Source: Thermanaeromonas toyohensis ToBE (GTDB lineage: Bacteria > Bacillota > DSM-521 > Neomoorellales > Neomoorellaceae). Taken from it: a stretch of 64,000 nt of DNA. The position numbers and the translations under genes were made by a program. The stretch is from assembly GCF_900176005.1 (NCBI RefSeq), contig NZ_LT838272.1, forward strand, positions 825,587-889,586, given 5' to 3'. The notes beneath the pieces were generated by a model. The model was not told the origin of the DNA, made no database searches, and saw nothing but the letters and a program-made list of their open reading frames with translations. Each line of letters opens with the position of its first letter. Within the stretch, counting starts at the first letter, position 1. This document shows positions 1-29,665 of the stretch, piece after piece.

Positions 1-2811
1 GGGATTGCCGGAATACAGGCTACCCTTAAGCTGGCAGAAGCGGGCCACAAGGTATATCTGGTGGAACGGGAACCAAGCCTAGGTGGCAATATGGCACGGT
101 TTGACCGGACTTTCCCCACCATGGACTGCGCTGCATGTACCTTAAGTGCGCTCATGGCGAGGGTAGCTGCCAATCCCAATGTCCATCTCCTAACCCTCAG
201 TGAAGTAACGAAAGTAGAGGGGCATTTTGGCGCCTTTCGGGTAGAAGTGAAACAAAAACCGCGACGTGTAAAGGATGGATGTACTGGCTGCGGCGATTGT
301 GAGCAGGTGTGTCCGGTAAAGGTACCAGATCCCTATAACGAAGGTCTTAGCACCACCAAGGCTATAACAAGACCGTTTGCTTATGCTGTACCTCCAACGT
401 TTTACGTTTCCCACAGGGGTGAGGCCCCCTGCCAAAAGGTATGCCCGGCAGGGGTCAATATTCCGGGGCTTCTTGCTTTAATCCGTGCCGGGCGGCGAGA
501 TAAGGCCCAGGAGTTACTAGAAAAAGCACTTGTACTGCCCTCTTTAACGGCAGCTTTTTGCCGCGCCCCCTGTCGCCTTGCCTGTGGGGAGCATACGGGG
601 GAAACAGGGATTAACCTTCCTTTGATAGAAAAGTCGTTGGCCCAGGAGAGGGAGGTAAAGAGGCTGAAAAGAGAGGGCCTTCGCTCCGGGCCCGCCCTAC
701 GAGTAGCTGTAATTGGCTCAGGACCTACCGGCCTAGCGGCTGCTTACCGCCTGGCAACTTATGGGTATAGCGTGACCATACTGGAGCGACGATCTGAACC
801 TGGCGGTATGTTGCTGTTAGCGAAAGTCCTTAACCCACCCTCGTTTGCTGCCCTTGAACAGGAGATCCACCATTTACAAGAACTGGGGGTGGAGATAATC
901 ACCAATGTAGAGGTGGATGATGGTAGTCTATCCCTTAAGCGTTTGGCTCGAGAATATGATGCCATCATTGTGGCTCAAGGAGCGTGGCATCCCCGTTCTT
1001 TAGGTGTCCCGGGTGAGGGAATGGAAGGTATTTGGCCGGCCCTATCTTTCTTGGAGGCAATATGCGAGGAGAAGATCTGCTTACAAAAACAGCGCGTTGG
1101 CATAGTTGGTGCCGGAGATACGGGAAAAGAATTAGCTTTGCTGGCCGCCCGGGAGGGAGCCTCCTTGATAGTGGTAATGGAGCAACGGGAGGAGCCCCCT
1201 GGCTTCCGGTGGCCTCCAGTACCCGTTGCGGTTCCTATTTACTTTTATTGGCAATTCCGAGTTACTGGTTTTACCAAGAAACAAGGCGCAATAATCGTCA
1301 AAGGGCCGCAGGAGGTAGAAGTCGATTTAGTAATTATCGCTGCCGGTCAGGATGTGGAATATCAACATCTGCGGTCGCAAGGGCTAATGGTAGATGAAGC
1401 AGGATATCTCGTGGTCGATAATTTCGGGCGTACGTCATATCCTGGTGTTTTTGCTGCCGGGGATGTTGTGGGAAATTGCGGCAGCGTTCCTGCTGCCCTT
1501 GCTGCAGGTGGCCGAGTAGCCGAAGCGGTGCACCGCTTTTTGCGTACAGCCCCAGAAGTCCGGTGGCAGTTTAATGGTCGAGCAGAAAGGGAAGCCAGCC
1601 TGGCAGCTACTGAACCCGAACAAAAACAGTGCGCTTATAGAGTGCAACCCTTTGACACCGGAGAAAGAGATAACTTTGATGCGGCAGTTGATCCTCTCCT
1701 CCAGGAAGCCCTTCGTTGTCGCCATTGCGGGGGTTGCGCCCTGTGTGGCCTCTGTGCTGAAGCCTGCCCGGTAGGTGCTGTTGATCTAGGGGAACCAGCG
1801 CGGTTCTTTAACTTTGAGGTTGGAGCCATTATTCTGGCTACGGGTTACCAAACCTTTGACCCTGCGAAAGAGCCAGCTTTTGGCTATGGGATTTACCCCA
1901 ATATTCTTACTGGTTTAGAGTTTGAGCGCCTTTCCAGCCCCCTAGGGCCCACCGGAGGCCGCATCATAACTTGCGAAGGTTACGAACCAGAGGCAGTAGC
2001 CATTATTCACTGTGTGGGAAGCCGCGATCGCCGTTACAATTCTTATTGTTCCCGGGTATGCTGTATGGCGGCTTTGAAGTTTGCCCAAACATTAAGGGAA
2101 AGGACCAAAGCAAAGGTGTTTGAGCTATACGTGGATTTATGCACGACAGGAAAAGGGCATGAGAATTTTCTTCGGAGAGTTCGCCAAGAAGGAGTTATCT
2201 TTCTTCGCGGCCGCTTACAAGGAGTCCACCAAAAAGGAAATCGATTGGTATTGAGGGTAGAGGATACTCTTTTAGGGGCGATACGGGAGCTAGAAGTAGA
2301 TATGGTGATATTAGCCACAGCTTTTGAGCCGCGTGCGGATGCTGGAGAGGTAGCTCGGCTATTTGGTATTCAGCGAGATGCTGATGGGTTCTTCCTGGAA
2401 GTTCATCCTAAAATGGCCCCTGTAGAGTCGGGTAATCCGGGTATATTCTTGGCCGGCGGGTGTCAGGGACCAAAGGATATTACGGAGACCCTTGCCCATG
2501 CCGGGGCGGCAGCCGCGGAAGCCCTTACTCGTTTAGCTTCTGGGGGACAACTTCTCTCCCCTGAAATGGCCTATGTGATGGAGGAACGCTGTTCCGGCTG
2601 CCACCTCTGCGTGAAGGTTTGCCCTGCCGAAGCACTCCTTCCAGCGGGCCAAAAAGTTTTAGTACATGAGCCTGCGTGCCGAGGGTGTGGTAACTGCGTA
2701 GCTGCCTGCCCTACCGGTGCTTTGGGGCTTTTCGGCAGTGAAAGCAAGGCCCTGCTAGCGCAAGTAAGTGCTGTGTTGCAGGAGGAGGTATCGTGGGCAA
2801 GCCGCTCATAG
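1..2811 (+). CDS. hdrA: HdrA-like flavoprotein fused to a GltD-type NAD(P)/FAD module (5'-truncated by window)
   Basis: The reading frame is open from base 1, so the start lies upstream; 936 residues are visible. Order: the end of an HdrA FAD-binding Rossmann fold (GIAGIQATLKLAEAG at bases 1-45, then ERE..LGGN), a cysteine-rich 4Fe-4S motif CTGCGDCEQVCP near base 280, a GltD-like N-terminal iron-sulfur helical domain (about 420-690), a second Rossmann motif VAVIGSGPTG at about 703, a 4Fe-4S motif CRHCGGCALCGLCAEACP near 1714, the HdrA C-terminal half with the SYCSRVCC motif near 2040, and two C-terminal ferredoxin motifs at about 2590-2720. HdrA carries the electron-bifurcating flavin of heterodisulfide-reductase-type complexes. 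The inserted GltD/NfnB-like module suggests that NAD(P)H is also a partner. The gene overlaps mvhD by 19 nt, and hydrogenase subunits follow, so it is likely the flavin hub of a soluble H2-oxidising complex. No HdrB or HdrC is visible in the window. Confidence 0.9.
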   Translation, partial: GIAGIQATLKLAEAGHKVYLVEREPSLGGNMARFDRTFPTMDCAACTLSALMARVAANPNVHLLTLSEVTKVEGHFGAFRVEVKQKPRRVKDGCTGCGDCEQVCPVKVPDPYNEGLSTTKAITRPFAYAVPPTFYVSHRGEAPCQKVCPAGVNIPGLLALIRAGRRDKAQELLEKALVLPSLTAAFCRAPCRLACGEHTGETGINLPLIEKSLAQEREVKRLKREGLRSGPALRVAVIGSGPTGLAAAYRLATYGYSVTILERRSEPGGMLLLAKVLNPPSFAALEQEIHHLQELGVEIITNVEVDDGSLSLKRLAREYDAIIVAQGAWHPRSLGVPGEGMEGIWPALSFLEAICEEKICLQKQRVGIVGAGDTGKELALLAAREGASLIVVMEQREEPPGFRWPPVPVAVPIYFYWQFRVTGFTKKQGAIIVKGPQEVEVDLVIIAAGQDVEYQHLRSQGLMVDEAGYLVVDNFGRTSYPGVFAAGDVVGNCGSVPAALAAGGRVAEAVHRFLRTAPEVRWQFNGRAEREASLAATEPEQKQCAYRVQPFDTGERDNFDAAVDPLLQEALRCRHCGGCALCGLCAEACPVGAVDLGEPARFFNFEVGAIILATGYQTFDPAKEPAFGYGIYPNILTGLEFERLSSPLGPTGGRIITCEGYEPEAVAIIHCVGSRDRRYNSYCSRVCCMAALKFAQTLRERTKAKVFELYVDLCTTGKGHENFLRRVRQEGVIFLRGRLQGVHQKGNRLVLRVEDTLLGAIRELEVDMVILATAFEPRADAGEVARLFGIQRDADGFFLEVHPKMAPVESGNPGIFLAGGCQGPKDITETLAHAGAAAAEALTRLASGGQLLSPEMAYVMEERCSGCHLCVKVCPAEALLPAGQKVLVHEPACRGCGNCVAACPTGALGLFGSESKALLAQVSAVLQEEVSWASRS

Positions 2812-3176
2812 GTTTTTTCTGCCGTTGGTGTGGGTGCACAGCCGCCGATCTGGTGGCCATGAGCCGTCGGGCCTTACCTAAGGAGCTTGTTATAATACCC
2901 GTACCCTGTAGCGGCAGGGTAGAACCCGAACTGATCCTCTCTGCATTACGCCAAGGAGCTGCTGGAGTCCTGGTGGTGGGCTGCCCCAGAGGGGATTGCC
3001 ATTATGGTAATGGTAATCGCCAGGCCGAAAAGCGGGCTGCCCTGCTGAAGTCTCTTTTGCGTGAGCTTAACTGGGAGCGGCGCTTCCGCCTAGAACTTAT
3101 CGGTCCCCAGGAGGCAGACCGTCTTTTAGAGATAACCTGGGAAATGGTGGCCTCTTTGAAAGAGACTGGTATCTAA
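2793..3176 (+). CDS. mvhD: MvhD-family iron-sulfur protein linking hydrogenase to HdrA
   Basis: A 127-residue protein of the F420-non-reducing hydrogenase delta subunit family. It has the expected FFCRWCGC motif at the N terminus, a mid-protein VPCSGR cysteine and the GCPRGDCHY motif around residues 66-75. These cysteines bind the 2Fe-2S cluster that passes electrons from the [NiFe] hydrogenase to HdrA. The GTG start at 2793 has a GGAGGAGG ribosome-binding site 5-10 nt upstream inside the end of hdrA, and the overlap suggests translational coupling. Length and motif order fit the family fully. Confidence 0.92.
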   Translation: MGKPLIGFFCRWCGCTAADLVAMSRRALPKELVIIPVPCSGRVEPELILSALRQGAAGVLVVGCPRGDCHYGNGNRQAEKRAALLKSLLRELNWERRFRLELIGPQEADRLLEITWEMVASLKETGI

Positions 3177-3189
3177 GGAGGAAAGATTT

Positions 3190-4038
3190 GTGTCTAAGGT
3201 AAGGCTGGCCGTTTACGGTGCAGCAGGTTGCGGGGGCTGTGAACTATCGCTTTTGGAGAACCCCGAAGCTTTTATGACACTTTTTCGTCACGTAGAGGTA
3301 TCATTTTGGCCCCTCATTACGGATAGCCGCCTGGATGACCTTGCTGGCTTACCAGATAACAGCGTAGAACTTGGTGTTCTCTGTGGAGGGGTAAGGACAG
3401 AACTCGATTACCGGGTTGCCTTGCTTTTGGCTGCCAAATGTCGCTCCCTTGTTGCCGTGGGCTCCTGTGCCCTCTGGGGAGGAATTGCCGCCCTTGCTGA
3501 CTTACCCCCGGCCGGTTGTTCCCAGGTACAGGCGCAACCGCCGTTACCACCGCTCCTGCCCAGGCTGTTCCCCCTTACCAAACTAATCAAAGGGGTCTAT
3601 CCTATTCCAGGCTGTCCGCCGAAGCCGGACCAGCTGGGCACCACTCTTCTGGCCTTAATTGGCGGGCAGGAACTACAGGCAGATTTCAAGCAGCTTGAAC
3701 CAGCTGTTTGCTCTTCTTGCCCTCGCTCAAGGGGTGAAGAGGGGCCTAGGCGCTGGTACCGTTACCAAGAGATAACAGTAAATGACCGCTGCTTTTTAAC
3801 TCTGGGCTTGATTTGTAGCGGCCCAGCCACCCGCGGAGGTTGCGGTGCTCGCTGCCCTAAAGTGGGGCTCCCTTGCCGTGGATGTTATGGTCCGCCTGCG
3901 GAAGTAAACGATCAGGGGGCAAGGCTTATTGGTGCCCTTGCTGCCCTAGAGGTTGCTGAGACATATCAGGACGCATCCCTTCTAGATGCTATAGGTACCT
4001 TGTATCGCTACACCTGGGCAGCAACTTTTGCCCAGTGA
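3190..4038 (+). CDS. mvhG: [NiFe] hydrogenase small subunit, Mvh/F420-non-reducing type
   Basis: A 282-residue cytoplasmic small subunit; no Tat signal is present. The proximal-cluster motif GCGGCELSLLE lies near residues 12-22, followed by VGSCALWGG and IPGCPPKPDQL, which complete the proximal site. The C-terminal half is cysteine-rich (CSSCPRSRG, GGCGARCPKVGLPCRGCYG), which would bind the medial and distal 4Fe-4S clusters. It sits between mvhD and the large subunit and its stop overlaps the next GTG start by 4 nt. A GTG start at 3190 follows an AAGGAGGAAAG Shine-Dalgarno. Role: electron relay from the NiFe site to MvhD/HdrA. Confidence 0.92.
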   Translation: MSKVRLAVYGAAGCGGCELSLLENPEAFMTLFRHVEVSFWPLITDSRLDDLAGLPDNSVELGVLCGGVRTELDYRVALLLAAKCRSLVAVGSCALWGGIAALADLPPAGCSQVQAQPPLPPLLPRLFPLTKLIKGVYPIPGCPPKPDQLGTTLLALIGGQELQADFKQLEPAVCSSCPRSRGEEGPRRWYRYQEITVNDRCFLTLGLICSGPATRGGCGARCPKVGLPCRGCYGPPAEVNDQGARLIGALAALEVAETYQDASLLDAIGTLYRYTWAATFAQ

Positions 4039-5450
4039 CAGGGGCGATAACCTTGCACCGCGTGGTCTTGGATCCTGTAACCCAAATCGAGGGTCACGGC
4101 GTACTCGAAATAGATTTTAGCGGCGGACATAACGTTACCGTTCGCTTGATGGCTACGGAGCTGCGAGGCTTTGAAAAGATATGCGTGGGACGCCCCATTG
4201 AAGAAATGCCGCGCCTTGTGTCGCGCATCTGTGGGATGTGCCCCGCGGCCCACCATGTTGCTGCGGCCAAGGCCGCAGACGATATCTTTGAGATAGAGCC
4301 CCCATCTTTAGCTCATCGGCTTAGAGAATTGGCCCTGTGCCTTCAGCTGATACAAAGCCACCTAACCCATTTTTATTTGCTGGCCCTGCCGGAACTTATT
4401 TATCGGTCTGAACCGACTGAGCGCAACTTCTTCCGGGTGATGGAGGAGCTGGGGCCGGAGGCTAGCCGTTATATTCTAGAGCAGCGCAGCTATCCCGGGA
4501 AAATTCTCGCTCTATTGGGCGGAAAGGGAATACACCCCGAATTCGCCGTACCCGGGGGAGTTTCCAGCGCTCTACCCGCGGCAGAGTTGTACAAGGTGCA
4601 GGCCATACTTCGCTCCCTGCTTTCTTTTGGATTGTATACCTTGGACCTTTTTCGGGAAAGGGTGCTAAACAAATCCCCTGATGTGGTATCTGCGAATGCG
4701 GCATCTGATTTTAAAACTTATTATTTAGCTCGCGTGCTAGAGGGCTGCCCTAACCTATATGAAGGAGAGCTAGTCCTAGTCAGCCCGGAGGGTTACCCCG
4801 TGGAACGTCTTACTGAAGCGGAGTACGCTGAACGCCTGGAGGGCGGGCGTGAAGCAGGAAATTATGCGGAGTCCTTTTCCTTCCTTGGCCGTGACGGACA
4901 GAGGATTCTCGTTCAGGTGGGTCCTTTAGCCAGGGCCAACGCAGCCCATGGCTTTAGCACCCCCAAGGCAGCAAAGGCTTACGAAGAAATGCTCAGGACC
5001 CTTGGTCCAAAGCCTATACGGGGCGAGATCGCTTATCACTGGGCCCGCTTAGTGGAGGTAATTTACGCGGCAGAGAGGGCGTTAGAACTGACCGCGAAAG
5101 ACCAACCCGATGCTGAAGAAATGAGGGTACTCCTTCCTGCCGCCCGTGGTGGCAGTGGCTTGGGGGTGGTAGAGGCTCCCCGAGGTCTCCTTTTACACAG
5201 ATACGAAGTTGATGATTCGGGTATAGTGCAACAGGTACGCATCATAACTCCTACGGCAGTTAACCTCCGAGCCATTGACCAGGCGGCCACCGCTGCAGCC
5301 AGGGAAGCTTTGGCCTCTGGAGGCGAACAGCAAGCTATTTTCCGGGCTGAGAACGCTGTGCGGGCCTTTGACCCGTGCCTTAGCTGTGCCACCCATATAA
5401 TTCGGAATGTACAGGCCAACAAAGGAGGTGAGGCGGTCGATAGCGAGTGA
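4035..5450 (+). CDS. mvhA: [NiFe] hydrogenase large subunit, Mvh/F420-non-reducing type
   Basis: A 471-residue large subunit with both nickel-ligand motifs. The N-terminal L1 motif RICGMCPAAHH is at about residues 62-72, and the C-terminal L2 motif DPCLSCATH is about 26 residues from the end. The N terminus has the family signature LDPVTQIEGHG. After the last histidine there is a short extension (IIRNVQANKGG...) that would be removed by a maturation protease. A GTG start overlaps the small-subunit stop (GTGA). With mvhD, mvhG and the HdrA fusion this forms a group 3c-like soluble H2-activating module. Confidence 0.93.
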   Translation: MTGAITLHRVVLDPVTQIEGHGVLEIDFSGGHNVTVRLMATELRGFEKICVGRPIEEMPRLVSRICGMCPAAHHVAAAKAADDIFEIEPPSLAHRLRELALCLQLIQSHLTHFYLLALPELIYRSEPTERNFFRVMEELGPEASRYILEQRSYPGKILALLGGKGIHPEFAVPGGVSSALPAAELYKVQAILRSLLSFGLYTLDLFRERVLNKSPDVVSANAASDFKTYYLARVLEGCPNLYEGELVLVSPEGYPVERLTEAEYAERLEGGREAGNYAESFSFLGRDGQRILVQVGPLARANAAHGFSTPKAAKAYEEMLRTLGPKPIRGEIAYHWARLVEVIYAAERALELTAKDQPDAEEMRVLLPAARGGSGLGVVEAPRGLLLHRYEVDDSGIVQQVRIITPTAVNLRAIDQAATAAAREALASGGEQQAIFRAENAVRAFDPCLSCATHIIRNVQANKGGEAVDSE

Positions 5451-5480
5451 GTAGGTCTTTAGGTTAGGAGGTGATAAGCT

Positions 5481-5891
5481 CTGCCTAAGGAAAAAGAAGA
5501 AAGCCCTTCTATGACTAGAGGACAATTCTTAAACTTTACGTGGCGATCGTTTCTGCAAACTGGCCTGGTTCTGTTTAAGGTGCTGGTAGAGGCAGAAGAA
5601 GGTGGATGGGAGAGCTTGGGTACAGTAAAGGACTTTCCCAAGCCACGCCTGACTGCCATAAGGGGTACTTACATCCTAGTAACGCAGCGAGAAGATAAAG
5701 TTTGGACTTATGTTGCCCTTTGCCCTAAAGATAGGGGTCCACTGCAGTGGGCTCGGGGTGATATGTTGTCCTGTGCGTGGTGTTCAAGCCAATATAGTAC
5801 GTTAACAGGGCAGAACGAAGATGGTGGGCCAGGCTTGGAACCTCTGCCGGTCAAGATTGCTGACGGGAGAATTTGGGTGAAACTTGGATGA
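5481..5891 (+). CDS. Rieske-fold protein with substituted cluster ligands; probable CTG start
   Basis: The C-terminal two thirds have the Rieske-ferredoxin layout (LTAIRGTYILV, then a C-rich loop, then LPVKIADGRIWVKL). The usual C-x-H ... C-x-x-H ligand pattern reads C-P-K ... C-A-W-C, so both histidines are replaced, by Lys and Cys. Whether a cluster is bound is therefore unclear. A textbook AGGAGGTGAT ribosome-binding site at 5465-5474 is correctly placed for a CTG codon at 5481. The first in-frame ATG is at 5511 with a much weaker site, so I prefer the CTG start (136 residues). The gene lies between two hydrogenase modules and could be an electron carrier between them. That role is inferred from position only. 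Confidence 0.7.
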   Translation: MPKEKEESPSMTRGQFLNFTWRSFLQTGLVLFKVLVEAEEGGWESLGTVKDFPKPRLTAIRGTYILVTQREDKVWTYVALCPKDRGPLQWARGDMLSCAWCSSQYSTLTGQNEDGGPGLEPLPVKIADGRIWVKLG

Positions 5892-5946: not shown

Positions 5947-7029
5947 ATGGTAATGGAGGATATAGCAGAAGGCCTCGCTTCTTTAGCTAGGCGAGGCATA
6001 TCACGCCGTAGTTTTCTTAAGCTGTGTTCGGCAACCGCTCTGGCCATGGGCCTAGATTTTAAAGTCGGGCGGCGCATGGCGCGGGTGGCAGCAGCAGCTA
6101 TAAGCAAGAAGCCAGTGGTGTGGATGCAGGGACAGGGCTGTACCGGGTGCAGCGAGTCTCTTCTTTCCTCCCTTGATCCCGATCCTGCTGCTATCGTCCT
6201 TGATCTCTTATCGGTGCGTTACCACCCGACTATTATGGCGGGTGCGGGTAAAGTAGCCCAGCGAGCCTGGGAAGAAGCCGTACGCCAGGGTGGCTACATC
6301 CTGGTACTGGAAGGGGCTATCCCTTTGGCAGATCCCCGCTTCTGTTTGGTCGAAGGTCGACCTTTTAGCGAACTTTTTATCGAAGCGGCCAAAAGGGCAG
6401 AGGTAGTCGTAGCGGCTGGCTCCTGTGCATCTTACGGCGGCATTCCTGCTGCTGGCCCAACTCAAGCCGCAGGGGCACAAGCAGTAGTAAAAGATAAGAC
6501 TGTAATCAACCTGCCCAGCTGCCCAGCGAAGCCCAGCCGCTTGTTAGGTACCCTGCTCTATTACCTCTCCTTCAGGGAAGCTCCTCCGTTGGACGATTTC
6601 GGGCGCCCGATACCTTATTACCAGAGATTTCTGCAACACGACAGTTGCCCGCGTAGGGGCCACTATGAGAGAGGGGAATTTTTAAAGGATTGGAACGATC
6701 CCAAGACCGTGGATTGGTGCTTGTTATACAAGGGCTGCAAAGGACCCCTTACTTACACTGACTGTCCTCGTATTTGGTGGAACGATGGGGCTAACTATTG
6801 CATCCGGGCGGGCTCTCCCTGTTCCGGTTGTACCCAGCCGGAGTTTTACGCTAAATTAACTCCGTTATATGCTAAACAAGAAATTATACCGGAACCCAAT
6901 GTATTTGGTCTCAGCATCACTACCGCAGCAAAAGGTATAACCGGCCTAGCTGCTGTGGGCGTAGCTGCCCATGCTGCCGCTCGCTTTATAGCCGGAAGGC
7001 AACAAGAAGGAAAGGAGGTTAAAAAGTGA
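5947..7029 (+). CDS. hyaA: Tat-exported [NiFe] hydrogenase small subunit
   Basis: A 360-residue group 1-type small subunit. The N terminus carries a twin-arginine signal, SRRSFLK at residues 20-26, followed by a hydrophobic stretch, so the folded heterodimer is exported across the membrane. Cluster-ligand motifs: GCTGCSESLL (proximal), AGSCASYGG, NLPSCPAKP, then HDSCPRRGHYERG and the C-terminal CLLYKGCKGP, TDCPRIWW and SPCSGC motifs that bind the medial and distal clusters. A hydrophobic alanine-rich C-terminal tail resembles the membrane anchor of HyaA-type subunits. ATG start at 5947 after AAAGGAGCGG. It overlaps the large subunit by 4 nt. Confidence 0.94.
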   Translation: MVMEDIAEGLASLARRGISRRSFLKLCSATALAMGLDFKVGRRMARVAAAAISKKPVVWMQGQGCTGCSESLLSSLDPDPAAIVLDLLSVRYHPTIMAGAGKVAQRAWEEAVRQGGYILVLEGAIPLADPRFCLVEGRPFSELFIEAAKRAEVVVAAGSCASYGGIPAAGPTQAAGAQAVVKDKTVINLPSCPAKPSRLLGTLLYYLSFREAPPLDDFGRPIPYYQRFLQHDSCPRRGHYERGEFLKDWNDPKTVDWCLLYKGCKGPLTYTDCPRIWWNDGANYCIRAGSPCSGCTQPEFYAKLTPLYAKQEIIPEPNVFGLSITTAAKGITGLAAVGVAAHAAARFIAGRQQEGKEVKK

Positions 7030-8606
7030 GCCAGCGGGTAGTTGTGGACCCGGTCACCCGCATTGAGGGGCATTTAAGGGTAGAGGTCGAAGTCGACGGC
7101 GGCCGGGTAGTAGATGCCTGGTGCATGGGGACCATGTTCCGTGGCTTTGAGGAGATAATACGTGGTAAAGACCCGCGCGACGCCACCTACGTTGCCGAGC
7201 GTATTTGTGGTGTATGTATGGGATCGCATGGCTGGACGGCTGCCCTGGCCGTAGAAAAGGCTTTTGGCGCGCAAGTACCTACAGCCGGACGTTTGATCCG
7301 GAATCTTCTAGTAGGATCCCTTTGGCTCCACGATCATCCGCTTCATTTCTATCATCTTTCAGCCTTGGATTATTTGGATATTACTGCTATAGGGAAATAC
7401 CAAGGGAATGATCCGGGATTACAGCATGTAAAAGCAAAGGTAATGGCTCTAGTGGAAGCGGGAGATGCTTATCCTTTGCTACCACGGTATGAACCCGATG
7501 AATACTCGGTCAAGGATCCGGAAATCGTAACTACCGCTGTGGCTCACTATCTTAAGGCTTTGGAGATCCAGGCCAAAGCTAAGAAAATGTCGGCTATTTT
7601 GGGAGGGAAACAGCCCCATCAGTCCAGCATCATAGTAGGAGGGGTGACTAGTTATCCTAATCTGGAACAATTGCGCCAGTTTGAAGAACTTTTACAAGAA
7701 GTCATAGATTTTGTCAAAAATGTTTATGTACCCGATGTGCTAGCCTTTGCCACCGGCCCCCTTTTACCCCTAGCACAGGCAAGCTTAGGTGCTGGCCCGG
7801 GTAATTATCTGGCCTATGGCGCCTTCCCCCTGGACGATGCCGGCAACAAAAAATTGTTTGAAGGCGGGGTTATTCTGGATAATAACCTCAATCAGGTACA
7901 TCCCTTAGATCATGAGCAAATAACCGAAGCAGTAACTCACTCCTGGTATAAAGAAGGAACAGGAGGGTATCCGGGGAAGGCGGTCACAGAGGTGGACTTA
8001 GATAAATCAGGGGCTTATAGCTTCATCAAAGCACCGCGTTATGCCGGCCGCCCCATGGAAGTAGGGCCACTCGCCAGGATGCTGGTCAAGCAACATGCCC
8101 CGCTGCTACAGGTTATGGCCAAATATAATATTCGCCCAGGAGCGGTAGCCAGGCACGTGGCACGGGCTCTAGAAACCCTTCTTATTGCTGATGCTATGCC
8201 GGTCTGGCTGGAAGAACTGATTAAAGTGCTAGATAGTGGTAAAGCATTCCACGATAATGGTTCGGCTCGCATCCACGATGCAGAGCACTGGGAGCCGCCA
8301 GAAAGGGGAGAAGGTATGGGCTTAAACGAAGCACCGCGGGGTGCCCTGGGCCACTGGGTGCGAGTGGCAAACCGGAAAGTAGAGCACTACCAGATTATAG
8401 TGCCGACAACGTGGAATGCTTCGCCCCGGGATGAGCAGGGCCAGCGGGGCCCCATCGAGCACGCCCTTGTGGGGACGCCGGTGCCCGATCCCGAGAACCC
8501 TATTAATATTGTCAGGGTAATCCGCTCCTTCGACCCGTGCCTTGCTTGCGCCGTTCACGTGGTTGAGCCAAGTTCCGGTCGCGAAGGGCTAATTTCCATC
8601 ATGTAA
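7026..8606 (+). CDS. hyaB: [NiFe] hydrogenase large subunit, membrane-bound uptake type
   Basis: A 526-residue catalytic subunit. Motifs: VDPVTRIEGHLRVEVEV at the N terminus, L1 RICGVCMGSHG near residue 59, and L2 DPCLACAVH near the C terminus. The tail after the last histidine is 15 residues (VVEPSSGREGLISIM), the expected peptide removed by the endopeptidase encoded at 9205. A GTG start with AGGAGGTTAAAA upstream overlaps the small-subunit stop. It splits H2 on the outer face; electrons leave through the small subunit to the adjacent cytochrome b. Confidence 0.95.
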   Translation: MSQRVVVDPVTRIEGHLRVEVEVDGGRVVDAWCMGTMFRGFEEIIRGKDPRDATYVAERICGVCMGSHGWTAALAVEKAFGAQVPTAGRLIRNLLVGSLWLHDHPLHFYHLSALDYLDITAIGKYQGNDPGLQHVKAKVMALVEAGDAYPLLPRYEPDEYSVKDPEIVTTAVAHYLKALEIQAKAKKMSAILGGKQPHQSSIIVGGVTSYPNLEQLRQFEELLQEVIDFVKNVYVPDVLAFATGPLLPLAQASLGAGPGNYLAYGAFPLDDAGNKKLFEGGVILDNNLNQVHPLDHEQITEAVTHSWYKEGTGGYPGKAVTEVDLDKSGAYSFIKAPRYAGRPMEVGPLARMLVKQHAPLLQVMAKYNIRPGAVARHVARALETLLIADAMPVWLEELIKVLDSGKAFHDNGSARIHDAEHWEPPERGEGMGLNEAPRGALGHWVRVANRKVEHYQIIVPTTWNASPRDEQGQRGPIEHALVGTPVPDPENPINIVRVIRSFDPCLACAVHVVEPSSGREGLISIM

Positions 8607-8621
8607 AGGGGGTAAATAAAG

Positions 8622-9236
8622 ATGGAGGCCACAAAAAGGTTTCAAGGTCCGCGGTCTATTTTCCATCTACTACACGCCTGGAGTATGGTCTTCTTAATTA
8701 TCACCGGCTTCATACTCCACTGGCCGCCAGCGGGGGTTAACCTGTCTCCTATCCGCTTTTTACATGTTACCGTAGGTATAGCAAATTTGGTAGGCTTGAT
8801 CCCGCGCATCTATTATGCCTTTGTCGGACCCCAACGTGATTGGCGTGAATTTATCCTTAGTAAAGACGATTGGCGGAGGCTGCTGTGTACCGTAAAATAC
8901 TATTTCTTCCTCCCCGGGGGCTGCTCTCCACCGGAGGGGACTTATAATCCATTGCAGAAATTGACTTATCTATTAATTGTTGTTTTCCTCGTGGTAGTAC
9001 AAAGCTGGTATGGTTTAAAGTTGGCTTGGCCTGCTACTTTTGCGCAAAACGAAAGCTTACTACTAGTTCGCAGTCTCCATTATGCAGGAACCTGGCTTAT
9101 ACTCGCTTTTCTGGTGATACACATATATTTGGCCTTGAGCGAATCGCGGGAACACCTGATTACCATGCTGTTAGGTATAACGAAGAAGTTTGGAGAGGTA
9201 AAAGGTGCCCAGGATATTGGTTTTGGGAATAGGTAA
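8622..9236 (+). CDS. hyaC: Hydrogenase cytochrome b subunit
   Basis: A 204-residue integral membrane protein with four clear hydrophobic helices. Histidines lie where heme ligands of the HyaC/cytochrome b561 family occur: HLLHAWSMVFLI in helix 1, RFLHVTVG before helix 2, and RSLHYAGTW and VIHIYLAL around helix 4. It would pass electrons from the exported hydrogenase dimer to menaquinone. It follows hyaB by 15 nt with a GGGGG ribosome-binding site, and its end overlaps the protease gene by 32 nt. Confidence 0.92.
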   Translation: MEATKRFQGPRSIFHLLHAWSMVFLIITGFILHWPPAGVNLSPIRFLHVTVGIANLVGLIPRIYYAFVGPQRDWREFILSKDDWRRLLCTVKYYFFLPGGCSPPEGTYNPLQKLTYLLIVVFLVVVQSWYGLKLAWPATFAQNESLLLVRSLHYAGTWLILAFLVIHIYLALSESREHLITMLLGITKKFGEVKGAQDIGFGNR

Positions 9237-9732
9237 TTTACTTCTTGGTGATGATGGTATTGGTCCTAGGGTAGTACAGAACCTATCCCAACGGATCTGC
9301 CGTAGTGATGTGGATTTCCTGGACGGCGGCACCGGTGGCCTGTATTTACTGGGGTATCTGGAGGGTTATTCGCATTTATTGGTGATCGACGCCCTGGACG
9401 CCGGGCTACGTCCAGGAACAATCTGCCGCCTTTCACCTGAGGGTATTGGCTACGGAAATATTAAACTTTCTTTTCACCAAACAGGCTTGGGGGACCTCCT
9501 GGCTCTGGCCAAGCTAACCGGTCTTCTTCCCCAAACAGTGATTTTCGGGATACAAATAGAACGGCTTGACTGGGGGATGAACTTAAGCCCATCGGTGGCC
9601 GCCCAACTTCCCCTATTAGAGGGACTCGTCTTACAAGAAATTGAGGATATATGTAATGGTGGAAAACAGGGCGACCTGTACAGGAAAGAAAAGGCTGAAG
9701 GGATGGTTAGGCGGTGCACGAGCTTAGTTTAA
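9205..9732 (+). CDS. hyaD: [NiFe] hydrogenase maturation endopeptidase
   Basis: A 175-residue member of the HyaD/HycI/HybD protease family, which trims the C-terminal peptide of the large subunit after nickel insertion. It starts MPRILVLGIGNLLLGDDGIG, the hallmark of the family. A DALDAG motif and a histidine in LSFHQTGLGD supply the remaining nickel-sensing ligands. The GTG start at 9205 lies inside hyaC, preceded by GGAGAGG. Its likely substrates are the hyaB product and possibly the Mvh-type large subunit. Confidence 0.93.
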   Translation: MPRILVLGIGNLLLGDDGIGPRVVQNLSQRICRSDVDFLDGGTGGLYLLGYLEGYSHLLVIDALDAGLRPGTICRLSPEGIGYGNIKLSFHQTGLGDLLALAKLTGLLPQTVIFGIQIERLDWGMNLSPSVAAQLPLLEGLVLQEIEDICNGGKQGDLYRKEKAEGMVRRCTSLV

Positions 9733-10064
9733 TGCAATCGGTAATTAACCTAGTAGAAGAAAAAGCTAAGGCCTACGGCCTAGTGAAGGTCACCAAGATT
9801 AAATTAGTAGTAGGGAAGATGACTATGGCCTTCCCTGAGGCGCTGGAAATGGCCTTTAGCGCTCTGAGCCGCGGTACCGTGGCTCAGAGCGCTAAACTCG
9901 AAATTGAACAACGAGAAGTGCGGCTACGTTGCCCCAACTGTGAATTAGAATTCGTCCCGGAACTGCCATACTTTACGTGCCTTCGCTGCGGCCATGTGGC
10001 ATACCAATTTATTCAAGGACGGGAACTTTATCTTGAATATTTCGAGGGGGAGGGCGAAGGGTGA
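9714..10064 (+). CDS. hypA: HypA nickel metallochaperone
   Basis: A 116-residue protein that starts MHELSLMQS, where the N-terminal His and Glu belong to the nickel site. The zinc-binding pair CPNC and CLRC lies in the C-terminal third. HypA delivers nickel to the hydrogenase large-subunit precursor together with HypB. The GTG start at 9714 overlaps the protease gene and the end overlaps hypB by 4 nt, so the maturation genes appear translationally coupled to the structural genes. Confidence 0.95.
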   Translation: MHELSLMQSVINLVEEKAKAYGLVKVTKIKLVVGKMTMAFPEALEMAFSALSRGTVAQSAKLEIEQREVRLRCPNCELEFVPELPYFTCLRCGHVAYQFIQGRELYLEYFEGEGEG

Positions 10065-10735
10065 AGGTTTTCCTAGTTAAAGATTTGCTGGCGGCCAACG
10101 AAGAGATGGCTAGAGAAAACCGCAGCCTTTTAAAACAGTATGGCCTGATAGCCTTAAACCTTATCGGGGGACCAGGGGCAGGTAAGACTACCCTTTTGGA
10201 AAAAACCGTTACTGCCCTAAGTAATCGCTTACGTTTTGGTATTATTGAAGGAGATATTTGTACTAGCCGGGATGCTGAGAGGCTTGCAAGACTTGGCGTA
10301 GAGGTGATTCAGATCAACACTGGTGGAGCCTGCCACCTAGATGCGGCCATGGTCGGCAGAGTATTGCGCGAGCTTTCACTGGCAGAACTGGATCTTATAA
10401 TAGTGGAGAACGTGGGGAACCTAGTCTGCCCAGCGGAGTTTGACTTAGGTGAAGATATTAAGGTAGCTGTCTTCAGCGTAACCGAAGGGAGCGATAAGCC
10501 GGCCAAATACCCGCTCGTTTTCCAACAAGCCAAGGCCTGCGTCCTCACCAAGCTGGACCTCCTTCCCTACACCGACTTCGACCTAGATGGAGTTCTTAAG
10601 GAAATCGCTCAGATTAACCCCGCCCTTAAAGTTTTTCCTCTATCAGCCCGTACGGGTGAGGGGATGGGAGCGTGGTATGAGTGGTTGAGGTGCCAAGCTC
10701 ATGCCCATAGAGAATTGGCGCCGGCTTTTAGCTAA
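10061..10735 (+). CDS. hypB: HypB GTPase for nickel insertion
   Basis: A 224-residue SIMIBI-class GTPase. The P-loop is GGPGAGKTTLLEKT near residue 36, the switch region is EGDICTSRD, the metal-binding GGACHLDAAMV motif follows, and the G4 motif reads TKLDLLPY. The N terminus lacks a histidine-rich or CxxCGC nickel-storage segment, so it probably acts only in delivery with HypA. Only 7 nt separate its stop from the hypF remnant, showing that the operon once continued into the other hyp genes. Confidence 0.95.
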   Translation: MKVFLVKDLLAANEEMARENRSLLKQYGLIALNLIGGPGAGKTTLLEKTVTALSNRLRFGIIEGDICTSRDAERLARLGVEVIQINTGGACHLDAAMVGRVLRELSLAELDLIIVENVGNLVCPAEFDLGEDIKVAVFSVTEGSDKPAKYPLVFQQAKACVLTKLDLLPYTDFDLDGVLKEIAQINPALKVFPLSARTGEGMGAWYEWLRCQAHAHRELAPAFS

Positions 10736-12921: not shown

Positions 12922-13331
12922 GAAGCCCTTGAGTAAACTGGATGGTCGCGGGAGAAGAATCTCTCCTGAGGAAAGTCCGAGCTCCACAGGGCAGGGTGCT
13001 GGGTAACACCCAGTGGGGGCGACCCCAAGGAAAGTGCCACAGAAACAGACCGCCCGGCCTTATAGGGGCGCGGAGGATAGTCCTGCCAAGGCAGGCGAAG
13101 GCTCCGGCCCTACATTACGCCGGGCAAGGGTGGAAAGGTGAGGTAAGAGCTCACCAGCGGTTAGGTGACTAACCGGCTAGGTAAACCCCACCCGGAGCAA
13201 GACCGAATAGGGGGACAATGGAGTGGCCCGCTCCGTCCCCGGGTAAGGTCGCTGGAGGTACTAGGCAACTGGTACCCTAGATAGATGACCATCCTCGACA
13301 GAACTCGGCTTACAGGTTTGCTCAAGGGTTC
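12922..13331 (+). ncRNA. rnpB: RNase P RNA, bacterial class A
   Basis: The catalytic RNA that trims tRNA 5' leaders. Conserved elements in order: GAGGAAAGTCCGAGCTCC near 12967, ACAGAAACAGACCGCC near 13038, AAGGGTGGAAAGGTGAGGTA near 13128, AAACCCCACCCGGAGCAAG near 13184, ATAGATGACCATCC near 13280 and CTCGGCTTACAG near 13304. The ends pair as helix P1 (CCCTTGAGTAAAC at the 5' end with GTTTGCTCAAGGG at the 3' end). The last 30 nt lie inside a 98-bp repeat that is found again 12,357 bp downstream, so the 3' end appears to be the attachment site of an integrated element. Confidence 0.96.
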
Positions 13332-13399
13332 TATTTTTTGGATTACAGTTGATCTTACGGAGTTATGGCTCACTGAGTGGAGTTATGTCTCACTCAGTG
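13302..13399 (+). repeat. attL-like direct repeat (98 bp, overlaps rnpB 3' end)
   Basis: Identical base for base to 25659-25756. It begins AACTCGGCTTACAGG inside rnpB, runs through the RNA 3' end and T-rich tail, and ends in a pair of near-identical 20-bp units that start GAGTTATG. This is the arrangement expected when a site-specific recombinase inserts an element at the 3' end of an RNA gene and regenerates that end. The copy at this side keeps rnpB intact. Confidence 0.88.
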
Positions 13400-13825
13400 G
13401 GCTGTACTCATTATAGGACCCATTTTAATGCCATAGTATTTTAGGTTATCCCGTTATGCAAGCCTGAGAATATATTTGAGTTGACAGTACTTCCCCATGG
13501 GATAATTGATACCCCAATTTTCCTTTCCGGATCGCAAGTTTACGCCTGGATGGTTAAGCCTGGATGAATAAAGCCGGGGCTAAAAGGGGAAATATATAAG
13601 ACAAAAAGCTATGCCGAGGGATGTTCGCCTTGCGCTGGCAGTTCCTTAAGGAGAAAAGGGAAGCTAGGTTAGAAGATCACATGGGAATAAAGCCCATAAG
13701 ATGGGCTCTCTACAGAAAGGCACCCCGAAAGCCAAAGGGGTGCCTTAAATTTTGGTTTATGCCTACAGGCATAACTTAGCCGTTTTTAACTACTTCAGTC
13801 AAAAGGCGGTGGAGGGACTTAACTT
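13332..13825 (+). other. Intergenic stretch inside the left end of the integrated element
   Basis: About 490 bp without a convincing gene. It contains the attL tail, a stretch that resembles the sequence right of attR only loosely, and a terminator-like hairpin at 13719-13754. A TTGACA at 13481 and GATAAT at 13501 are only 14 bp apart, so I do not call a promoter. Confidence 0.5.
13719..13754 (+). terminator. Terminator-like hairpin (GGCACCCC stem)
   Basis: GGCACCCC at 13719-13726 pairs perfectly with GGGGTGCC at 13737-13744 and is followed by TTAAATTTTG. The right arm and tail recur at 26063-26080 (with a wobble-paired left arm) and at 30417-30430 (without a left arm). It is therefore a repeated motif of this accessory region. 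Confidence 0.6.
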
Positions 13826-14746
13826 ATGGATAGAAAAAGGCGGGACGAATACAATCCTGTAGCTTTTAGACTTACAAAAGCCCGGGAGGAGTTCACTATC
13901 TGGGACGGCTTTGAGCTGTGGGCCCGACATCACCTGGCGGACAGAGGCGGAAGCCAGGAAACCGTAGGTAATTACCGTAGCGATTTTAAGAAGCTCCAGG
14001 AAAGGTTATATCCCCTCTGACCCGACCCAGGAGATCAGACTTCCCCGGGCTGGCAGAAAGGTTATACGTGTTTCGAGGACGATTCCTCTCGAAGTAAGGG
14101 AAAGGTTGGCCAGGGATGCCTGGAAGATGGGTTTTAGAGAATATGGCCCTCTCAGCTTCGTTTATTACGCTGGACGGATATTGACTTTGCCAACAGGACA
14201 ATCCGCTTCCCTAAGGTTAAGAACAGCGGCAGCGGCGGGGGGCCCATTTCCGATGAACTGCTGGAACTTTTAAAGGAATTTAAGGAGGGGGGTTAGGGAG
14301 GCCAAATATATGTATTTCGCAGCCGCCAAAGCGAGCCTATTAGTGTAGCCCGTAGGAAGGCTATAGTAGCCAGGCTGCTCAAGGGCAGTTTCCCAGTTAA
14401 AGAATACAATTCCCATGATATGCGGACCACGGTGGCTACCGAGATATCCCAGAAGCCGGGATGCAATACCAGGGTCGTACAGGGAATCCTGGGCCATAAG
14501 CGGCCGGAAACCACGGTAGGCTATAAGCGAGCAGATTCCGAAATCATGAAAGAAGTGGTAAGGGAACGTTTTGATATGATAGATGTAAGGCCAAAAGTTA
14601 AGGATGATATCGCTGCTACCGCACCACCGGCGGGCAAAACGGAAAACCGGAAGGAGAACAAGAACCCTAACTTAAAACCGACCTTTACGTTGTCCCCTGA
14701 GATATATGTATTTGTCAATCGAAAAGTTGACCACTTGATCTCTTAA
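13826..14746 (+). pseudogene. Tyrosine recombinase (phage-type integrase), decayed
   Basis: Three pieces of one integrase are visible in different frames. An intact ATG-started N-terminal SAM-like DNA-binding domain (13826-14017) contains HHLADRGGSQETVGNYRSDF. A middle piece (about 14085-14285) reads DIDFANRTIRFPKVKNS and SDELLELLKEFKEGG. A C-terminal catalytic piece (about 14408-14600) has HDMRTTVATEI and VQGILGHKRPETTVGYKRAD, equivalent to the HxxR and LGH active-site boxes. Stops and frame changes near 14018 and 14290 separate the pieces. The last codons run into IS21-type terminal sequence at 14722, so the C terminus was also replaced by an insertion. Confidence 0.82.
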
Positions 14747-14757
14747 AAGTTGACCAC
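14722..14757. repeat. Terminal direct repeats of an IS21-family element
   Basis: AAAAGTTGACCAC occurs at 14722-14734 and again at 14745-14757. IS21-family insertion sequences carry several such short repeats at their ends, and an istB remnant on the minus strand lies just inside. This marks the surviving end of the element. The opposite end is not identifiable. Confidence 0.6.
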
Positions 14758-14921
14758 CTGTATAGTTTAGTTTCGCTACGGCTATGTTGGTTTATTTTAG
14801 AACGGGAACCATCTCCTGGTTTTGCTTGATTAGTTTGTTGGTCGGGTAATGTTAACCAAGGTTGGCCGGGCTGTGGTCGGGACGCCGTCTAGCTTACTAA
14901 CAAGTGAAATGCTTTTAACTA

Positions 14922-15380
14922 CTATGCAGAGACAGAGCTAACCAATCCTTCCTCTTGGCGTCGCCTTAAACTCTGACGGAAGCGATAGCTTTCCCCGTTC
15001 ATGACCAGGATATGGGCATGATGGGTGAGCCTGTCCAGGAGGGCAGCGGTCATCCTTTCATCTCCAAATACTTGTACCCATTCGCTGAATTCGAGATTAG
15101 AGGTAATGAGCACAACTCCCCCTTTCATACCGGCCAGCCAAGAAGAGGAAGAGGAGCTGGGGTCCTTCAGTGGTGTAGGGTACATAACCCAGCTCGTCTA
15201 CCACTACCAGGTCTTGCTTTAGCCACTGCTTTTCCAAAGAAAGTAATTTATGTTCCCGGGCAGCTGCTAAGAGTTCTGTAACCAGGCTGGGGGCAGTATA
15301 AAAGCGTACACGGTAACCCTGCCGGCAGGCACATAAAGCCAGGACAATGGCCAAATGGGTTACCGTTGTCACAAGACTTA
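14922..15380 (-). pseudogene. istB: IstB-like ATP-binding helper of an IS21-family element, truncated and frameshifted
   Basis: The minus strand encodes [30 protein letters not shown] and then, after a one-base shift near 15110, [18 protein letters not shown] and [18 protein letters not shown]. These are the Walker B and sensor regions of IstB. The P-loop (GxxGxGKTH) is gone: the sequence before THLA reads SLVTTV and earlier residues do not match. No istA partner is present, so the element cannot move on its own. Confidence 0.82.
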
Positions 15381-15401
15381 TACCCTTCGTCCTCCGGGTA
15401 C

Positions 15402-15614
15402 TAGTCCCTGGGCCAGATTTACAAAATTAGGTGTGCAGACAGTAGTTTATTATACCCAGAGGATGAGCTTAAGCTCGCGGCCCAAATATTGAACCTTACT
15501 CCTTCTAGGGTTATAAGATTAGTGGACAAGTATATCCGGCCAAAAAATGTTCCTAGGATGTTGCCCCCAAAATCTGATCCCATAACTATTGACATAGAGC
15601 CTACTAAATCTTAA
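15402..15614 (+). other. Open reading fragment of unknown origin
   Basis: Between two in-frame stops the plus strand reads about 70 codons that look protein-like (for example YPEDELKLAAQILNL and PSRVIRLVDKYIRPK), ending at TAA 15612. There is no usable start codon, so it is probably the tail of a deleted gene. I do not recognise the family. Confidence 0.3.
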
Positions 15615-15639
15615 CACGGACCCAGGATAAACATTATTA

Positions 15640-15668
15640 TTGATTTTGGTAGAATTTTGGGGTAATAT
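15640..15668 (+). promoter_or_regulatory. Sigma-A type promoter for cbiM
   Basis: TTGATT at 15640-15645 and TAATAT at 15663-15668 are separated by 17 bp. Transcription would start near 15675, giving a leader of about 180 nt before cbiM. Confidence 0.55.
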
Positions 15669-15674
15669 ACATAA

Positions 15675-15820
15675 TGTAAAAGTAAACAGGAGTGGTGCCA
15701 GAAAGGCACACGGGTGCTTTTGCACCTGGCTGTCAGACAACGGTTTCATATTTTAACGGACAGCGGTGACCACGGAGGTCTCCAGTTAAGCGGGCCGAAG
15801 TGGTCACTTTTAATTTCCTC
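15675..15820 (+). promoter_or_regulatory. Structured leader of cbiM with terminator, candidate metal-responsive riboswitch
   Basis: The leader contains successive hairpins: GTGCC-agaaa-GGCAC, GGGTGC-tttt-GCACC, and CTGTC pairing with GGACAG near 15757. The last is GTGACCAC (15766-15773) pairing with GTGGTCAC (15800-15807), followed directly by TTTTAATTT. This last hairpin looks like an intrinsic terminator placed between promoter and gene, the usual expression platform of a riboswitch. No cobalamin-riboswitch core (GCCACTG box) is present. A NiCo-type sensor is possible but not demonstrated by sequence. Confidence 0.45.
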
Positions 15821-21403: not shown

Positions 21404-22330
21404 GTGCCCATAGACCACGACGCTATATTTAAAGAGCTCATCACCAACTTCTTTAAAGAATTCATGGAGCTCTTCTTCCCCGAAGCCCACGCCCTAATCG
21501 ATTATTCCGAACTAACCTTCTTATCCCAAGAGATCATCACCGACATCACCGCCGGAGAAAAACACTACGTAGATATACTGGCCAGTGTTAAAATAAAAGG
21601 AGAAGAGGGCTATGTCCTTATTCACATAGAACCTCAGGCTTATAAAGAAGCAGACTTTGCCCGGCGCATGTTCATATACTTTAGCAGGCTTTACGAGAAG
21701 CATAAGAAGAAGGTATTGCCTATAGCTATATTCTCCTATGACAGCAAAGCAGAAGAGCCAGACAAGCACGAAGTAGCTTTCCCCTTCTTTAAAGTGCTAG
21801 AGTTTAACTTTTACAAGGTGCAGCTTAAGAAACTGCCCTGGAGGAAGTACATAAATAGTGACAATCCAGTTGCGGCAGCTCTTCTTAGTAAAATGGACTA
21901 CAGCCCTAAGGAGAGACGGCAGCTAAAGATAGAATTTTTGAGAATGATAACGCGGATGCAGCTGGATCCGGCTAAGCTAGGGCTTATAACAGCGATATTT
22001 GAGACCTATTTAGGTTTAAGCCCGGAAGAGGAGAGGGAAGTAGAGGAGATGCTACATAGGGAATTAAGCGCGGAGGAGGTAAAGAAGGTAATGGAACTTA
22101 GGACTTCGTGGCATATAAAGGGATGGCAAGAAGGCCTAGAGGAAGGGCGGAGAGAAAAGGCACAAGAGTTGGTGCTAAGGTTATTAAATAAGCGTTTAGG
22201 TTTTCTTCCCCCTGAGGTAGAGGAGAGGATAAAGTCTCTTTCCTTGAAGGAGCTTGATGAGCTGGCGGAGAAGATATTTGAGGTGACCAGTGAAAGTGAC
22301 CTAAGGAAATTCCTGGGCATGGAGCATTGA
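21404..22330 (+). CDS. Rpn-like PD-(D/E)XK nuclease with DUF4351 tail, copy 1
   Basis: A 308-residue protein of the Rpn/YhgA-like transposase-derived nuclease family. It starts MPIDHDAIFKELITNFF. The PD-(D/E)XK core shows VDILASVKIK followed by YVLIHIEPQ. The C-terminal 50 residues (LNKRLGFLPPEVEERI, LDELAEKIF) match DUF4351. Rpn proteins in E. coli promote recombination and some act as phage defence. The GTG start follows GGAGAAACC. It is nearly identical to 28624-29562, and both copies are followed by the same spacer and an epimerase gene. The main protein-level difference is the charged linker before DUF4351. Confidence 0.85.
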   Translation: MPIDHDAIFKELITNFFKEFMELFFPEAHALIDYSELTFLSQEIITDITAGEKHYVDILASVKIKGEEGYVLIHIEPQAYKEADFARRMFIYFSRLYEKHKKKVLPIAIFSYDSKAEEPDKHEVAFPFFKVLEFNFYKVQLKKLPWRKYINSDNPVAAALLSKMDYSPKERRQLKIEFLRMITRMQLDPAKLGLITAIFETYLGLSPEEEREVEEMLHRELSAEEVKKVMELRTSWHIKGWQEGLEEGRREKAQELVLRLLNKRLGFLPPEVEERIKSLSLKELDELAEKIFEVTSESDLRKFLGMEH

Positions 22331-22433
22331 AAAAGCCTTTGCTAAAGGCGCTATCTTGTGACGTAAGCTAATTAATTGAGCTAAAAATGTGAGCACAATA
22401 TGTACTAACTTTTTGCTTGGAGGAGGCTATCCT

Positions 22434-23468
22434 TTGCGCATACTCGTGACCGGCGGGGCCGGCTTTATCGGCCCCCATGTGGTGGACGCTTTGCTAGAAG
22501 AAGGGCACGAGGTAATAGTAGTCGACGACTTGAGCAGCGGTAAGGAAGAAAACCTTAATCCTGCCTGCCGGTTTTACCGGATGGACATTTGTTCGCCGGA
22601 ATTGGAAAGGGTCTTCCGGGAAGAAAGGATAGAGCTGGTGAACCACCATGCAGCTCAAATTGATGTGCGCCGTTCCGTGGCCAGCCCGGAAGAAGACGCC
22701 CGGGTAAACATCCAAGGGCTGTTAAACCTCTTATCCAATTGCCTGCGCTATGGGGTAAAGGGGTTTATTTTTGCTTCTTCGGGCGGGGTAGTGTACGGCG
22801 AGCCGGATGAGCTTCCGGTGAAGGAGGAACACCCCAAGGGGCCGCTATCGCCCTATGGGGTGAGCAAGCTGGCCTCAGAATATTACCTCTACTACTTTGC
22901 CCGGGTGCACGGCCTGCCTTACATAGCCCTGCGGTACGGCAACGTGTACGGCCCCCGGCAGGACCCGCATGGTGAGGCCGGGGTGGTGGCCATCTTCGGG
23001 CAGAAAATGCTAAAGGGAGGCGTTCCCACCATCTACGGCGATGGGGAGCAACTGCGGGATTATGTCTACGTGGGAGATGTGGTGCGGGCTAATCTTTTGG
23101 CCATGAAGAAGCTACTAAAGGGCCTAGACCTCTCTGCCGTAAGCAGCATTGACACCCTGGCGTACAACATAGGTACGGGCCGGGGCACTTCCGTGAACGA
23201 GCTCTTCCGGCTGCTTATGGAAGCGACCAGCTATAAAGGTGAGGCGGTATATGGGCCAGAGCGTGCAGGAGAATTAAGGAAGATATATCTTGACGCAGGG
23301 AAGGCGGCGCGGGAGCTGGGCTGGCAACCGCAAGTGAGCTTGGAGGAAGGGCTGAAGCGAACGGTGGAGCATCTGAGAAAGGCCGGAGATTCGAAGGAAG
23401 ACCTGAAACTTGCTCGGGAAATAATCGAAGGATACCTACCGGCATTAGAGGAACTTAGCAAGAAATAA
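22434..23468 (+). CDS. NAD-dependent sugar-nucleotide epimerase/dehydratase, full-length copy
   Basis: A 344-residue extended SDR protein of the UDP-glucose 4-epimerase type. Motifs: TGGAGFIGPHVVDALL (NAD binding), VVVDDLSSG, the catalytic serine region FASSGGVVYGE and YGVSK near residue 143, then LRYGNVYGPRQDP and YNIGTGRGTSVNEL. A TTG start at 22434 is supported by GGAGGAGG 8 nt upstream. The substrate cannot be deduced. It follows the Rpn-like gene by 103 nt and forms a duplicated module with it. A C-terminal extension of about 30 residues (EDLKLAREIIEGYLPALE) is unusual for the family. Confidence 0.88.
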   Translation: MRILVTGGAGFIGPHVVDALLEEGHEVIVVDDLSSGKEENLNPACRFYRMDICSPELERVFREERIELVNHHAAQIDVRRSVASPEEDARVNIQGLLNLLSNCLRYGVKGFIFASSGGVVYGEPDELPVKEEHPKGPLSPYGVSKLASEYYLYYFARVHGLPYIALRYGNVYGPRQDPHGEAGVVAIFGQKMLKGGVPTIYGDGEQLRDYVYVGDVVRANLLAMKKLLKGLDLSAVSSIDTLAYNIGTGRGTSVNELFRLLMEATSYKGEAVYGPERAGELRKIYLDAGKAARELGWQPQVSLEEGLKRTVEHLRKAGDSKEDLKLAREIIEGYLPALEELSKK

Positions 23469-29562: not shown

Positions 29563-29665
29563 AAAAGCCTTTGCTAAAGGCGCTATCTTGTGACGTAGGC
29601 TAATTAATTGAGCTAAAAATGTGAGCACAATATGTACTAACTTTTTGCTTGGAGGAGGCTATCCT

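Follow-up and report, generated by a model that had tools for sequence, protein, structure and literature searches.

A natural Rieske-fold family with a putative Cys3-Asp metal site encoded beside Tat-type [NiFe]-hydrogenase small subunits

Rieske proteins and their altered relatives

Rieske [2Fe-2S] proteins, among them the bc1/b6f-type proteins and the Rieske ferredoxins (PF00355), carry a C-x-H motif in loop 1 and a C-x-x-H motif in loop 2; those exported by the Tat pathway possess in addition an N-terminal twin arginine and a hydrophobic stretch. NirD, the small subunit of nitrite reductase, displays the same fold without the normal ligand set. Rubredoxins are recognised by two C-x-x-C knuckles, and the rubredoxin-type accessory proteins HupI and HoxR are small Cys-metal helpers of the hydrogenase small subunit.

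The step from a Rieske to a rubredoxin-like site has been made by design in Sulfolobus ARF (PMC2946596). According to the available part of that study, the positions matching the loops discussed below are Cys42, His44, Lys45, Cys61, and His64. The H64C change alone keeps a low-potential Cys3His [2Fe-2S] cluster, H44C fails, H44C/H64C is largely impaired, and the triple change H44I/K45C/H64C results in a rubredoxin-like mononuclear Fe(Cys)4 site. In the accessible portions of the open-access literature (PMC12727194, PMC10924467, PMC2946596, PMC7317946), we found no description of the family presented here or of a natural Rieske-fold Cys3-Asp site.

Sequence and fold

The gene lies at positions 5481-5891 of the window (the whole 64-kb stretch of DNA analysed), on the forward strand, as do its motifs and the HynS, HynL, and cytochrome b genes described below, and comprises 136 codons and a stop when read from a CTG start. 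A Pfam scan of its product finds no recognised domain (best E 0.09). Pfam and NCBIfam mostly miss its homologues as well: PF00355 is detected at E ≤ 0.01 in just three of 17 family members, and the best score for Pfam Rubredoxin, in one of seven members, is E 0.34.

The Rieske fold put forward by the first-pass annotation is borne out by structure prediction and profile comparison. The AlphaFold2 model (13-row alignment) has a mean pLDDT of 84.9, reaching about 96 over residues 41-136; its N-terminal helix is of low confidence (52-70, and below 50 in the model of a second member, L069). Foldseek returns 107 PDB matches at E ≤ 0.001, of which the 50 listed are Rieske-fold proteins, and VIA-align superimposes 97 residues on the Rieske ferredoxin 2qpz (Z 13.6, rmsd 3.3). 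The model of L069 (17-19% identical) also matches Rieske proteins, and a seven-row family profile finds the b6f-type Rieske chain 8hn2 as its best PDB sequence (E 1.9e-8). Besides the fold, the family has its two loops arranged in the same order and equally spaced as in PF00355 proteins, and shares with these the first Cys of each loop.

Metal-binding loops

The remaining ligands, in contrast, differ from those of PF00355 proteins. Loop 1 of the window protein reads Cys81-Pro-Lys83-Asp84 (5721-5732) and loop 2 reads Cys98-Ala-Trp-Cys101 (5772-5783), so that three Cys are present and His occupies neither Rieske position, as first noted. The family is divergent, its 17 distinct sequences being 16-33% identical to the window protein, and its alignment leaves only Arg13, Phe16, Cys81, Cys98, and Cys101 invariant. 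Position 84, three residues after the first Cys (+3), is nonetheless acidic in every member (15 Asp, 2 Glu), giving the conserved pattern C-x-x-[D/E] ... C-x-x-C, with one C-x-x-C where rubredoxins have two. Homologues with normal histidines had been named beforehand as counter-evidence; in the family, however, the second His is replaced by Cys in 17/17, and the first (+2) is kept in three members only (L059, L061, L030), each time with Asp at +3. Among ordinary Rieske motifs, none of the 25 distinct ones is acidic at +3 and 18 possess Leu there; these come from 30 loci picked by their C-x-H/C-x-x-H pattern, which fixes those residues and leaves +3 free (L034, L132, L147, and L148 are repeats, and L049 is without the motif).

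The C-x-K motif to which the first-pass annotation drew attention loses its meaning in this alignment. The +2 residue is Lys in five members, Glu in three, His in three, Gln in two, Ala in two, Arg in one, and Asp in one, and this variability rules out Lys83 as a metal ligand. The acid at position 84 is probably a ligand. Of the two roles first envisaged, a differently ligated metal site gains support from the three Cys and the acid conserved throughout, and a purely structural subunit becomes less likely because these residues are among the very few that the protein conserves. An ordinary Rieske protein altered by a sequencing error is ruled out, the substitutions recurring in 16 other sequences.

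N-terminus and translation start

The reading frame is open from 5478 to a TGA ending at 5891. Within it, the CTG at 5481-5483 is the sole start-like codon between the upstream stop and the ATG at 5511, the alternative start, from which the product would be 126 rather than 136 residues long. A Shine-Dalgarno box, AGGAGGTGAT (5466-5475), is separated from the CTG by 5 nt and from the ATG by 35 nt. This is its only exact copy in the window, where one-mismatch matches number 10 against a chance mean of 3.96. Six homologues (L050, L051, L052, L057, L059, L017) have Shine-Dalgarno-supported starts ahead of the R-x-x-F motif that they share with the window protein; L017 possesses in addition an internal ATG matching that of the window, and in L060 a start is possible only at the motif itself. 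Given the position of the ribosome site and these upstream starts, translation likely begins at the CTG, as had been proposed.

The R-x-x-F motif (Arg13, Phe16; 5517-5528), invariant in 17/17, appears as a remnant of the Tat-type Rieske N-terminus, and the family profile aligns from this motif into Tat-anchored Rieske proteins. The twin arginine of such proteins is, however, found in none of the 17 members, and the hydrophobic anchor is missing. The N-terminal helix is amphipathic, not hydrophobic: its mean best hydropathy is 0.48, against 1.67 in ten ordinary Rieske N-termini, and its hydrophobic moment is 0.42-0.77, against 0.26-0.37. Since the second Arg is gone throughout and the helix has this character, the protein is, on sequence grounds, rather unlikely to be exported by itself; it may possibly be co-exported by riding with HynS.

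Distribution and ancestry of the family

The family assembled here consists of the window protein, L050, L051, L052, L057, L058, L059, L060, L061, L062, L064, L067, L069, L004, L016, L017, and L030, a small set in which many sequences stem from metagenome assemblies. With the genome of origin counted each time, the window protein alone matches three of 61 whole genomes and 11 of 398, and the seven-row profile matches 36 of 398. A search of genome contigs with the single protein gives no match. In all 12 genomes found at E < 1e-12 the gene stands beside HynS, and the weaker-ranked matches, as read in the loci retrieved, have ordinary C-x-H/C-x-x-H motifs. In the reverse direction, a search with HynS finds the family gene in 12 of the 80 top-ranking small-subunit loci; of the 68 without it, 8 have fewer than 450 bases upstream. 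Phyla outside that of the window were sampled solely through these 80.

Most of the hosts that have a name belong to Bacillota (Dethiobacter, Thermincola, Clostridia), and one is a Candidatus Aquicultor (Actinomycetota). One member is labelled Desulfovibrio (L062), and its hydrogenase is near-identical to that of L064, labelled Dethiobacter. Within the window's own class, a family-level match occurs in one of 22 genomes, its own; two weaker matches, in G019 and G006, are ordinary Rieske genes (L033 and L038).

In a tree of Rieske sequences, the family is set apart by a branch with 99/96 support, to which the motif columns contribute, and several end branches are long; the family is probably of single origin. 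On a HynS tree of 54 rows (49 of the 80 HynS-search loci, the window, and four loci from other genomes), the gene needs five gains or losses, which could equally reflect loss, transfer, or repeated gain. Other Rieske derivatives occur on the opposite side of the branch: in L003/L005 and L011, a long NifU-like N-terminal part is fused to a Rieske domain that, unlike the family, keeps the ordinary C-x-H/C-x-x-H ligands, and L005 has a [NiFe]-hydrogenase nearby.

Hydrogenase context

The gene is followed by a Tat-type module (5947-10735) of HynS, HynL, cytochrome b, HypA, and HypB. HynS (5947-7029; PF14720, PF01058) is a [NiFe]-hydrogenase small subunit with an SRRSFLK motif, related to the small chains of 1h2a and Hyd-1; HynL (7026-8606; PF00374, E 3e-160) is the large subunit, and the next gene (8622-9236; PF01292) encodes a hydrogenase-type cytochrome b. 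Upstream lies an HdrA-MvhD-MvhG-MvhA-like module (61-5450).

The hydrogenase setting recognised at first pass holds in part. Homologues with the same substitutions, which it had advised looking for near hydrogenases, number 16, and the gene is upstream of a Tat-type HynS in 17/17 members (16 directly, one, L067, with hypC between), an adjacency true by construction for the 12 members found through HynS. In L060, a hypE-like AIRS gene stands just 5' of the family gene. The place between two hydrogenase modules, however, does not extend beyond L050/L014 and L051/L015; as both modules occur only in the window and these two loci, an obligate link of Mvh/Hdr and Hyn modules is ruled out. A cluster of this kind directly 5' of the Tat-type operon is an arrangement seen in three lineages (61-5450 in the window, 3-5453 in L050, 3-5416 in L051), and may constitute a two-sided hydrogen system.

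Many related HynS operons, among them some from Desulfosporosinus whose cytochrome b is the same, do without the family gene, which is therefore not essential to this hydrogenase class. Conversely, L057, L061, and L062 have the gene and give no match to the cytochrome b query; gene and cytochrome each occurring without the other, an obligate link between them is ruled out. A feature of the HynS tail is ruled out too, since the tail sequence does not distinguish loci that carry the gene from those that do not. Close HynS relatives (62-63%) in L053-L056 have neither a cytochrome b match nor the HynS tail; L054-L056 are without the family gene, and L053 has just 273 bases upstream.

Possible functions

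Our overall reading, a tentative one to which we give a little less than even confidence, is that of a Rieske derivative dedicated to the hydrogenase, bearing a Cys3-Asp site and probably helping HynS in assembly or redox chemistry without itself being exported. Its ancestor would have been a Tat-anchored, quinol-oxidase-type Rieske protein, whose twin arginine, membrane anchor, and histidine ligands would have disappeared as new loop motifs arose, C-x-x-D/E in loop 1 and C-x-x-C in loop 2. In the likeliest arrangement, a single metal ion, either iron or zinc, would be bound by these four side chains in a rubredoxin-like site, with a Cys3-Asp [2Fe-2S] cluster ranked second. This preference for a mononuclear site, to which we lean mildly, follows from the comparison with ARF as given in the available part of its description (PMC2946596): the +3 position corresponds to ARF Lys45, and the family combines an H64C-type change with a ligand-type residue (Asp/Glu) at the K45 position. 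The same two positions are thus changed as in the engineered H64C and H44I/K45C/H64C proteins (loop-2 His to Cys, loop-1 ligand from +2 to +3). The family differs in being natural, in using Asp/Glu where engineered ARF has Cys, and in that its ligands are read from sequence.

Devoid of an export signal, the protein would most likely stay in the cytoplasm, where its amphipathic N-terminal helix would dock on HynS, or on the HynS-HynL complex, before Tat export, and help to assemble or protect the HynS iron-sulphur clusters in the manner of HupI/HoxR, proteins of similar role but different fold. An accessory role fits better than a catalytic one, because maturation genes adjoin in L060 and L067 and the gene is absent from operons of this class; as a helper function specifically, it is a plausible suggestion that falls somewhat short of an even chance.

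An electron-transfer subunit of the hydrogenase, with a low-potential Cys3-Asp [2Fe-2S] cluster (possibly Cys3-His in three members) that would relay electrons between HynS and a partner in the cytoplasm or membrane, is the less likely of the metal-redox readings and, on balance, unlikely. The presence of the gene beside HynS in every member, and in the three loci where the cytochrome b query is unmatched, argues for it, as does E. coli SdhB, in which a Cys-x-x-Asp motif naturally supplies a [2Fe-2S] ligand. The loop-2 His-to-Cys change of ARF also yields a low-potential [2Fe-2S] cluster, but cluster assembly suffered when the loop-1 His ligand was replaced, in the available part of that work (PMC2946596). 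Moreover, an exported HynS would be served by a protein without export signal, and many homologous operons dispense with the gene.

Less probable still is a zinc-structured docking protein or chaperone, with a zinc-knuckle-like structural site and no redox function. C-x-x-D/C-x-x-C does resemble zinc knuckles, and zinc-domain matches occur in single members (Trm112p 7e-4, zf-MIZ 0.006), but these are low-scoring, one member each, and the setting is anaerobic and rich in iron-sulphur proteins. Finally, a ligand-free, NirD-like structural domain is very improbable: NirD structures are found among the Foldseek and VIA-align matches, and the second His is gone throughout and the first mostly, but three Cys and an acid persist in 17/17 of an otherwise highly divergent protein, a conserved set that NirD is not known to have.

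Returning to the mononuclear Cys3-Asp site, the family may show a Rieske protein naturally remade as a rubredoxin-like metalloprotein, with the loop-1 ligand shifted by one residue, aspartate recruited, and a dedicated [NiFe]-hydrogenase partner; we advance this with reserve, as something less than probable. Rieske and rubredoxin metal loops resemble each other, and the conversion of one into the other made by design in the ARF work, as far as its available part describes (PMC2946596), would then have an evolved counterpart, which the family looks to be. The three members that combine a +2 His with a +3 Asp, and by their motifs could hold a Cys3His cluster, may be intermediates, so that the route by which ligands are exchanged in an iron-sulphur fold could be tested directly. 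The family also suggests that a class of hydrogenases found in anaerobic Bacillota and in one lineage of Actinomycetota has a partner missing from current annotation.

Other features of the window

Two further regions of the window deserve mention. A near-duplicate gene pair at 21404-23468 and 28624-30262 consists of a 308/312-aa ORF, presumably of nuclease-like type, and an ORF for an NAD-dependent epimerase; of the two epimerases, the second (213 aa instead of 359) looks internally deleted. The stretch 12942-15700 contains few genes, among them what we take to be remnants of an IstB-type transposition gene (15097-15372, minus strand) and of an integrase (14420-14746).
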